In this document: positions 58,435 to 62,642 of the stretch, one piece after another
Layout: each line of letters begins with the position of its first letter
How positions within the stretch are numbered: the stretch's first letter is position 1
Program-made: the position numbers and the translations under genes
Assembly (NCBI RefSeq): GCF_029633915.1
Contig: NZ_CP091092.1
Location: 1,054,001-1,118,000, forward strand
Length of the DNA stretch: 64,000 nt
DNA from: Methanomicrobium antiquum
GTDB lineage: Archaea; Halobacteriota; Methanomicrobia; Methanomicrobiales; Methanomicrobiaceae
Direction: 5' to 3'
Notes under the pieces: generated by a model
Told to the model about the DNA's origin: nothing
Database searches by the model: none
Seen by the model: only the letters and a program-made list of their open reading frames with translations

Positions 58435-58478
58435 TTTAAATTAACTTTAAATTAACTTTAAATTAACTTTAAATAAAC
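58435..58478 (+). repeat. Four tandem 11-bp units upstream of dph6
   Basis: TTTAAATTAAC occurs three times and TTTAAATAAAC once, head to tail, ending 18 bp before the dph6 start. The 11-bp period equals about one helical turn. The units contain TTTAAA and could act as TATA-like elements or a protein-binding array; slippage is the alternative. Confidence 0.75.
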
Positions 58479-58496
58479 TATTTATCCGGAGAAGAG

Positions 58497-59177
58497 ATGA
58501 AGCTTGGAGTTTTATTTTCAGGAGGGAAAGATTCAGTTTTTGTCTGTTATATGGCAATGCAGAGAGAGGAGGTTGAGTGTTTAATTACACTTGCTTCAAA
58601 AAACACAGAAAGTTACATGTTTCATACTCCCAATATAAGTTTAACATCACTTCAGTCTAAAGCCGCTGATATTCCTCTCCTTGAATTTGAAACTGACGGA
58701 GAAAAAGAAGATGAGCTTGAAGATTTAAAATCTGCTATAATATGTGCAAAAGATAAATATTGCATTGAAGGGATTGTAACAGGCGCAATAATGTCAGTTT
58801 ATCAGGCATCAAGAATCCAGAAAATTTGTGATTCACTTGATTTGTGGTGCTTCAATCCGTTATGGTACATAAATCAAAATGATTACATGAATAATATATT
58901 AGATTTGGGGTTTGAAGTTATAATTTCAGGCGTATTTTCATATCCTTTTGATGAATCATGGCTTGGTAGAAGAATTGATGAAAAAATGCTTGACGAACTT
59001 TCAACTTTCTCTGAAAAATACAAAATTACCCTGACAGGTGAGGGTGGAGAATTTGAGACATTTGTTCTTGACGCTCCTTTTTTTAAGAAAAAAATCATTA
59101 TCGATGATTTTGATACAAATTACAAAAACTATAATGGTTTATTCTCAATAAAAGCCGCCCATCTGGAGGATAAATGA
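58497..59177 (+). CDS. dph6: Diphthine-ammonia ligase Dph6
   Basis: Dph6 amidates diphthine on elongation factor 2 with ATP and ammonia. The 226-residue protein has the PP-loop LFSGGKDSVFVCYMA, the ISLTSLQSKAADIPL segment, IEGIVTGAIMSVYQASRIQKICDSLDL, and GEGGEFETFVLDAPFF, the COG2102 signature. Length fits the archaeal single-domain form. GGAGA lies upstream of the ATG, after an 11-bp repeat array. A class I glutamine amidotransferase gene overlaps its stop by 4 bp, so an ammonia-supplying partner is possible. Confidence 0.9.
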   Translation: MKLGVLFSGGKDSVFVCYMAMQREEVECLITLASKNTESYMFHTPNISLTSLQSKAADIPLLEFETDGEKEDELEDLKSAIICAKDKYCIEGIVTGAIMSVYQASRIQKICDSLDLWCFNPLWYINQNDYMNNILDLGFEVIISGVFSYPFDESWLGRRIDEKMLDELSTFSEKYKITLTGEGGEFETFVLDAPFFKKKIIIDDFDTNYKNYNGLFSIKAAHLEDK

Positions 59178-59797
59178 TAATAATCTGTGATCTTTCATAT
59201 AAATCTGAGTCTTTATCATTCTTTGAATATGTAAAGCCGATTGAAGAGATTATAAAAAAAACCGAAATGTCCTTTAAAACAGTTCACTACAGTGAACTTG
59301 AAAAAAAATCTGAATCAAGTAATAATAGTGAAGAATATAGTGGTTTGCAAAATTTTCTTCTTAAAAAAGCCACAGGAATAATCCTCTGCGGTACTGCTCT
59401 CAAAGATAATGAATTTTTGAAAAAAACAGAAATTTTCCAATTTTTAAAATATACTGAAATCCCTGTTCTTGGAATCTGCGCAGGTTTTCAGGTTATTGCA
59501 AAATTATTTGGCGGAAATATTATAGAGAACAAAAAAATTGGTATGACAACTGTAAAAACAATTTCAGACTCTCCTGTTTTAAGGGGTATGGATAAATTTG
59601 AGGCATATGAACTTCATAAAAATTCCTTTGAACTGCCTGCTGATTTTTTAATTCTTGCAGAGTCCGATACAGATATACAGGTGATAAAACACAGATACAA
59701 ACTGATATTTGGCGTAATTTTCCACCCGGAAGTTCGAAACGAAAGAGTTGTTGAAAATTTTTTAGGAATAATCAGAGGAACCTGTAAGTCTGTTTAA
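59174..59797 (+). CDS. Class I glutamine amidotransferase domain protein
   Basis: The 207-residue protein has the GATase I triad region: nucleophile Cys in PVLGICAGFQVIAKLFGG, and His-Glu in FGVIFHPEVRNERV. It resembles the glutamine-hydrolysing subunit of archaeal GMP synthase (GuaA A subunit) but is longer at the N terminus and lacks a synthetase domain. Such domains release ammonia from glutamine for a partner enzyme. Its start overlaps dph6 by 4 bp (ATGA), so it may feed Dph6; a GMP synthase partner elsewhere is the alternative. Its last 36 bp overlap the end of the convergent kinase gene. Confidence 0.8.
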   Translation: MIIICDLSYKSESLSFFEYVKPIEEIIKKTEMSFKTVHYSELEKKSESSNNSEEYSGLQNFLLKKATGIILCGTALKDNEFLKKTEIFQFLKYTEIPVLGICAGFQVIAKLFGGNIIENKKIGMTTVKTISDSPVLRGMDKFEAYELHKNSFELPADFLILAESDTDIQVIKHRYKLIFGVIFHPEVRNERVVENFLGIIRGTCKSV

Positions 59798-61868: not shown

Positions 61869-62642
61869 TTAGGGAAATGAAACAAGAAGTTTTCCTGCCC
61901 TTGTTCCGCGTGAAAGTTCAATTACATCTCCGTCTGTTATTTTGTACCTTATTCCCTTCTCAAGAAGTACCCCGTTTAGAAAAGTCCCGCCAGTACTTTT
62001 TATGTCTTCAATATACCAGTCGTTTCCTTCATCGTAAAAATAGCAGTGAGGTTTTGTAATCCTTGATACAGCTCCATAAAATTCCGGGAAAACAATATCT
62101 CCCTCTTCAGGAACATAGGTATGGTCATTGTCATTTCTTCCAACACGAATTTTTTTGTGATTTAAAAGGTAAGCGGTTTCGTCATGTGGTCCGCCGACAA
62201 TAAACACAACAGGAATATCTCCTTTTATCTCATCAGAGATCTGAGCTTTGAGATTTTTTATTCTGTCTGCAAGGATTTCATTGTCAGGAGTCAGATTAAC
62301 ATCATTGAATATCTGAAGATTTTTAAAGACTGCTTCAAGTCCTCCAGGCATTATTGAATATTTCCAGACAGGATGGACACCTTTTGTTTTTCTGCTGCTT
62401 ATTCCGGTTTCTTTTTTAATAACTCCGGCAAGGTGAAGCTTTTGAATATGTTTTTTTGTATTTTCATAGCTTATGCCAATCTCATAGGAGATTTCACGAA
62501 CATCTTTTTGATTTTTTTCAATACATTTCAATATCTTAAGTCTTGCCGGATTGGACAAAACATCAAGATAATCGGATAATTCTTCGAGAAAATCATCATC
62601 ATTTTCAATAAATATTGTTCCTTTGGCTTCTTCCTGAGACAT
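61869..62642 (-). CDS. FHA-domain protein with N-terminal winged helix
   Basis: The 257-residue protein has an ArsR-like winged helix at residues 20-85 (LSDYLDVLSNPARLKILKCIEKNQKDVREISYEIGISYENTKKHIQKLHLAGVI). A C-terminal FHA domain at about 160-250 shows IRVGRNDNDH, the conserved SRITKPHCYFY-type block, and STGGTFLNG. FHA domains bind phosphothreonine peptides, so this looks like a transcription regulator controlled by Ser/Thr phosphorylation. The membrane kinase gene lies immediately downstream on the same strand (415 bp). This kinase-FHA-HTH arrangement suggests a direct phospho-signalling pair. Confidence 0.88.
   Translation of the reverse strand: MSQEEAKGTIFIENDDDFLEELSDYLDVLSNPARLKILKCIEKNQKDVREISYEIGISYENTKKHIQKLHLAGVIKKETGISSRKTKGVHPVWKYSIMPGGLEAVFKNLQIFNDVNLTPDNEILADRIKNLKAQISDEIKGDIPVVFIVGGPHDETAYLLNHKKIRVGRNDNDHTYVPEEGDIVFPEFYGAVSRITKPHCYFYDEGNDWYIEDIKSTGGTFLNGVLLEKGIRYKITDGDVIELSRGTRAGKLLVSFP

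Follow-up and report, generated by a model that had tools for sequence, protein, structure and literature searches.

A class I glutamine amidotransferase encoded as a unit with Dph6 in Methanomicrobium antiquum and its relatives: a probable glutamine-dependent diphthamide synthetase with repeated loss of the catalytic cysteine

Results and Discussion

The dph6-GATase gene pair

The window analysed here is a stretch of 64,000 nucleotides of Methanomicrobium antiquum (contig NZ_CP091092.1, positions 1,054,001 to 1,118,000 of the forward strand), and all coordinates below refer to it unless another locus is named. It carries a gene for the PP-loop enzyme Dph6 which overlaps a gene for a class I glutamine amidotransferase (GATase), with the following features:

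58497..59177, + strand: dph6, PP-loop diphthine--ammonia ligase, 226 aa (TIGR03679, PF01902, alignment with PH1257/PF0828)
58518..58535, + strand: PP-loop SGGKDS of Dph6 (translation, aligned with PH1257 and PF0828)
58845..58865, + strand: WCFNPLW motif at Dph6 residues 117-123, typical of Dph6s paired with a GATase
59174..59177, + strand: ATGA overlap of dph6 and the GATase gene, 4 bases (ORF coordinates)
59174..59797, + strand: class I GATase subunit, predicted to be dedicated to Dph6, 207 aa (PF00117, Dph6 linkage)
59477..59479, + strand: codon of Cys102, predicted glutaminase nucleophile (GICAG; alignment)
59723..59731, + strand: His184-Pro-Glu186, predicted catalytic triad residues (FHPE; alignment)

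The upstream product scores 279.2 bits against the NCBIfam model TIGR03679 (Dph6_archaeal; cut-off 197.3), also matches PF01902, and can be aligned from end to end with PH1257 (2d13, E 2e-62) and PF0828 (3rjz, E 2e-61). The downstream product matches PF00117 at 69.2 bits (cut-off 22.8) and has Cys102, His184 and Glu186 at the positions of the catalytic triad, as expected of a class I GATase. The first-pass annotation, which had described a Dph6 gene overlapping that of a stand-alone class I GATase, is therefore borne out: both reading frames are real, they share four bases, and both family assignments are confirmed. The ATGA overlap would allow translational coupling of the two genes.

Directly upstream of dph6 (58435-58479) lies a tandem repeat of the 11-base unit TTTAAATTAAC, with 4.1 copies and 97% matches. 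On the other side, a protein kinase gene (PF00069; 59762-61453, - strand), the product of which has a long, hydrophobic N-terminal half, runs convergently with the GATase gene, sharing 36 bases with the 3' end of the latter. A protein with an ArsR-type HTH and an FHA domain (61869-62642, - strand) is possibly a partner of this neighbouring kinase.

The GATase is neither GuaAa nor TrpG

The window GATase passes no NCBIfam equivalog; the best of them, GMP synthase subunit A, gives 83.7 bits where 198 are required. The corresponding model NF001975, compared with 25 relatives of the protein, yields an E-value of 1.3e-26 at best, and across these 26 sequences the family is covered by no NCBIfam model. 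Since no curated family covers them, such proteins are likely labelled only as generic glutamine amidotransferases or as GMP synthase in many of the genomes that carry them. The nearest solved structures are also GuaAa (1wl8, 65.6 bits), and a contig search with the single window protein as query returned only three matches, bacterial and distant.

Identity with GuaAa or with TrpG was ruled out, because the genome encodes both as separate genes: a true GuaAa elsewhere scores 235.4 bits against the same cut-off of 198, and TrpG lies in a trpE-trpG-trpD cluster, the order of which was read from the ORFs.

Conserved linkage and natural fusions

The distribution of the GATase was established within one archaeal phylum, from 150 genomes of the window's order, a phylum sample of 392 genomes and 50 genomes of a family coded f22. 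In the order search a clear gap separates the GATase family from the next matches (85.8 versus 53.6 bits). The family occurs in 83 of the 150 order genomes, and in 82 of these 83 it is the next gene after dph6, in the same orientation, a pairing beyond chance; in the remaining genome (G061) both genes sit at contig ends. Seventy-two of the 392 genomes of the phylum sample carry the gene, 25 of them outside the order (families f9, f22 and f30), and all 25 have it beside dph6. In family f22 it is found in 43 of 50 genomes and linked to dph6 in 42; in the unlinked one (G467) the assembly has a stretch of N at this locus. Counting once the 11 f22 genomes that also belong to the phylum sample, the GATase is present in 140 genomes and linked to dph6 in 138, of which 137 have the two genes adjacent or fused. 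Dph6 without the GATase was found in 58 sampled genomes, 54 of the order and four of f22.

Of the 81 pairs of the order that could be measured, 66 share the 4-base overlap seen in the window, while the flanks vary: a crude comparison, based on the longest open frame to either side, gave 50 clusters of upstream neighbours in 81 loci and 28 of downstream neighbours in 80. Since the two genes stay together in several families although their neighbours change, chance or the synteny of close kin is ruled out, and the Dph6-GATase pairing is a conserved unit. In one genome outside the order (G152, L148, 1016-2826), a TnpB-type gene (PF07282) stands between dph6 and the GATase gene, apparently inserted into a once-adjacent pair.

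Natural fusions of Dph6 and GATase occur in 16 genomes of two families. In the genus of the window, three genomes have both parts in one frame (465, 480 and 499 aa), and 13 genomes of f22 carry fusions, with Cys, Gln, His and Glu kept in all 14 of their fusion sequences. Because these two sets lie in distant families, they suggest two separate fusion events. Proteins found fused in this way usually function jointly; by linkage as well as by fusion, glutaminase and synthetase are encoded as one unit. One f22 genome (G487), for which 6% contamination is listed, has two different fusion genes (L251 and L302) on two contigs and perhaps represents two strains.

These observations also bear on a more trivial reading, namely that a GMP synthase subunit A has strayed next to dph6, or that an unrelated gene shares a conserved operon with it. 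The families and structures nearest to the GATase are indeed those of GuaAa, but the protein falls more than 100 bits short of the GuaAa cut-off that the genome's separate GuaAa passes, and neither a stray subunit nor a passive neighbour would account for 138 linked genomes out of 140, fusions in 16 and variable flanking genes; we regard this reading as having a negligible chance of being correct. The outcome that would have spoken against the first-pass proposal, namely a GATase that pairs elsewhere with the PP-ATPase of GMP synthase, did not occur: the linked partner among the 140 genomes is Dph6, and the conservation of the pair in methanogens that it called for extends over several families.

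Two kinds of Dph6

In a tree of 64 Dph6 sequences, all 39 that are paired with a GATase fall on one side of a single branch (support 95/89; 96% of 200 bootstrap trees). The clade of paired Dph6s groups at 100/99 with the branch that contains the AsnB-Dph6 fusions, and the order's own stand-alone Dph6s lie outside this group; a bigger tree built by a quick method (120 rows, of which 90 are paired, with eight of the 26 genomes of the Ser clade described below kept) gives the same picture. A short motif follows this division: [WFC][CS]x[NS]PLW at Dph6 residues 117-123 is present in 81 of 83 paired Dph6s of the order versus one of 54 unpaired ones, namely that of G050, which is truncated where its contig begins. 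As judged from these sequences, the Dph6 type and the GATase are matched, since the GATase is absent where the other type of Dph6 occurs. Co-occurrence is clearly broken in a single f22 genome (G445, L290): its Dph6 bears RCFNPLW, but no GATase was found within roughly 2.1 kb downstream, nor at E 1e-20 in the rest of the genome, which makes it a candidate case of secondary GATase loss.

The probable substrate

The genome of M. antiquum encodes Dph2, Dph5 and an EF-2 with the target-histidine site IHRGPAQ, and it has a single Dph6, so that the substrate of this enzyme is most probably diphthine on EF-2. The residues attributed to the EF-2 site of PF0828 in an earlier study (S44, Y45, E78, Y103, Q104, the GEGGEFE glutamates and A149; PMC3541065) are identical in the aligned window protein, except for Ser in place of A149. 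One might argue that the pair makes a different amide, the paired Dph6s having moved to another acid substrate: they carry specific changes of their own, and other roles have been proposed for DUF71 proteins in bacteria and in some archaea (PMC3541065). Against such a shift stand the agreement with PF0828 at all of these positions bar one, the score above the TIGR03679 equivalog cut-off, and a genome that encodes Dph2, Dph5 and EF-2 but no second Dph6; we consider it very improbable.

A predicted glutamine-dependent diphthamide synthetase

Textbook amidation of diphthine uses free ammonium. Dph6 is an N-type ATP pyrophosphatase, the same kind of ligase as in GMP synthetase and asparagine synthetase; in the former a class I glutaminase supplies the ligase with ammonia, in the latter a class II enzyme does so. 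It seems quite likely, on the comparative evidence, that the pair described here is a two-subunit glutamine-dependent diphthamide synthetase with a layout like that of GMP synthetase, in which the GATase delivers ammonia to Dph6. The GATase subunit would hydrolyse glutamine by means of its Cys-His-Glu triad and pass the ammonia on to Dph6; the PP-loop of Dph6 would adenylate the carboxylate of diphthine on EF-2, and attack of ammonia on the adenylated intermediate would yield diphthamide. What we observe in support are the two genes, which stay paired and are in places fused, their catalytic residues, a Dph6 clade that matches the GATase, and Dph2, Dph5 and EF-2 in the genome; from these we infer a physical complex, an ammonia channel and the use of glutamine. 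An AlphaFold2 single-sequence model of the GATase alone reached a pLDDT of 51, too poor for use.

The suggestion of the first-pass annotation that the pair may form a glutamine-dependent diphthine amidase is thus well supported at the sequence level by the conservation of the unit, the two sets of fusions, the single clade of paired Dph6s and a nucleophilic Cys in 107 of 140 genomes. On the other hand, free ammonia suffices elsewhere, since yeast Dph6 has been reported to use ammonium (PMC3585130 and PMC5354562) and 58 of our genomes have Dph6 without the GATase; G445 and, as described below, the genomes without the Cys and the variable Gln106 also count against this reading. The pair provides a testable nitrogen donor for archaeal diphthamide synthesis, and would tie the modification of a translation factor to glutamine and hence possibly to nitrogen status.

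Repeated loss of the catalytic cysteine

The position of Cys102 is not occupied by Cys throughout the family: the residue has been lost in 33 of the 140 genomes, which form two clades plus two single genomes. Among the 83 GATases of the order, 55 have Cys, 26 Ser and two Gly (G083 and G119, the former being one of the Dph6-GATase fusions). All 26 Ser-bearing sequences belong to a genus of the Methanoculleus type (g12), where His and Glu are mostly kept. In a Methanotrichaceae-type genus of f22 (g64), all five genomes have Ser or Ala instead of Cys102, and His184 is replaced by Asn, Asp or Ser. The GATase tree requires four independent changes for these losses; the GATase trees include 12 of the 26 Ser-clade genomes as representatives and leave out G116, with its frameshifted 3' end. 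Gln106 of the GxCxGxQ motif is variable even among some Cys-bearing GATases. Two individual copies deserve mention: that of G116 in g12, whose 3' end looks damaged, and that of G199 (L152), which has Cys but Tyr for the catalytic His (FYPE) and perhaps represents an inactivation in progress.

The Cys-less genes are not simply decaying. With sequence pairs of dS outside 0.1-1.5 omitted, the median dN/dS of the GATase is 0.32 in g12 and 0.26 in g64, against 0.13-0.32 in other groups (Dph6: 0.19 in g12 and 0.10 in g64); gene, position and purifying selection are all kept in both clades. Of 27 columns conserved in 75 Cys-bearing GATases (columns filled in fewer than 70 of these rows being skipped), the losses common to the two Cys-less clades are limited to C102 and A103. 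The WCFNPLW region of Dph6 is also kept in both, and a comparison of Dph6 residues that change alongside the loss of Cys found none common to the two clades (zero in g12, six in g64).

With 33 genomes of 140 lacking the Cys, glutaminase activity cannot be the sole reason for keeping the subunit. Could the GATase-like subunit then be mainly structural, allosteric or an entry path for ammonia in the family as a whole, glutamine hydrolysis being secondary or lost? Four separate losses of Cys with retention of the gene under purifying selection, and the narrow set of columns affected, fit such a role, for which CPS1 offers a precedent: its GATase-like domain is inactive through a Cys to Ser change and the enzyme takes free ammonia (PMC4655335). 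Set against it are the 107 genomes that keep the Cys and a further 33 of 33 sequences of one family in which Cys, Gln, His and Glu are all kept, a pattern that calls for selection on catalysis; as an account of the whole family we hold the structural role to be unlikely, and prefer the glutamine-dependent synthetase.

In the Cys-less lineages themselves, by analogy, the subunit has probably been retained because it gives structure to an ammonia-dependent enzyme or admits ammonia to it. In g12, where His and Glu mostly remain, Ser may still support a weak activity; in g64 this is unlikely. Genus g64 would include Methanothrix thermoacetophila PT, and f9 would be Archaeoglobaceae; the family of the second Cys-less clade is presumably that of the acetate-using Methanothrix, which are not known for high ammonia. 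For this reason a high-ammonia habitat would not be a general cause of Cys loss; as a guess, it fits Methanoculleus bourgensis, which has been associated with such a habitat (PMC5062929 and PMC4919398).

A broader scenario, for which we see even chances, is that one Dph6 branch gained a class I glutaminase and grew dependent on it, and that at least two lineages then retained it as a dead but obligate ammonia-admitting pseudo-enzyme, replaying the transition from CPS III to CPS I. The lineages concerned may be the Methanoculleus type and the one Methanotrichaceae-type genus. If true, this would be a second natural replay of that transition, here on the modification of a translation factor. The repeated loss of the glutaminase with close relatives on both sides makes the switch from glutamine to ammonia directly comparable, and the family also allows the roles of non-catalytic GATase subunits to be compared.

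Comparison with known systems

The first-pass annotation had considered a glutamine-dependent diphthine amidase to be undescribed. This stands for the class I version, as neither a class I GATase acting with Dph6 nor its repeated inactivation was found mentioned in the open-licence PMC papers searched; the concept of a glutamine-fed Dph6 is not wholly new, because in 2012 De Crecy-Lagard and co-workers predicted that Dph6 may be supplied with ammonia by RidA domains in eukaryotes and, in some archaea, by a class II AsnB domain fused to it (PMC3541065).

AsnB-Dph6 fusions were also found here, as frames of 706-749 aa that start with MCGIAGF or similar, and their Dph6 clade neighbours the paired one. 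Like the pair of the window, these fusions (Methanohalophilus, Methanosalsum and others) join a glutaminase to Dph6 and correspond to the ammonia source proposed in 2012 (PMC3541065). They differ in that the AsnB glutaminase is of class II, with an N-terminal Cys, is placed N-terminally and carries a second PP-loop domain, whereas the window-type GATase is of class I, with a triad, is C-terminal or separate, and comes without an extra synthetase. The known Dph6 (EC 6.3.1.14; TIGR03679, PF01902) shares with the window protein the full length of the archaeal enzyme, the PP-loop and the EF-2-site residues, but it has been described with free ammonium, while the window type has a putatively dedicated class I glutaminase and the WCFNPLW segment.

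Archaeal GMP synthetase (GuaAa/GuaAb) resembles the pair in combining a PP-loop ligase with a stand-alone class I GATase, and GuaAa is the nearest relative of the GATase; the window pair has another ligase and another predicted substrate, its GATase falls below the GuaAa cut-off, and a true GuaAa is present besides. CPS1, finally, has a Cys to Ser change in a retained class I GATase domain, as in the Ser clades (PMC4655335); its ligase is unrelated, and the use of ammonia, described for CPS1, is what we would predict for the Ser-type Dph6 pairs.
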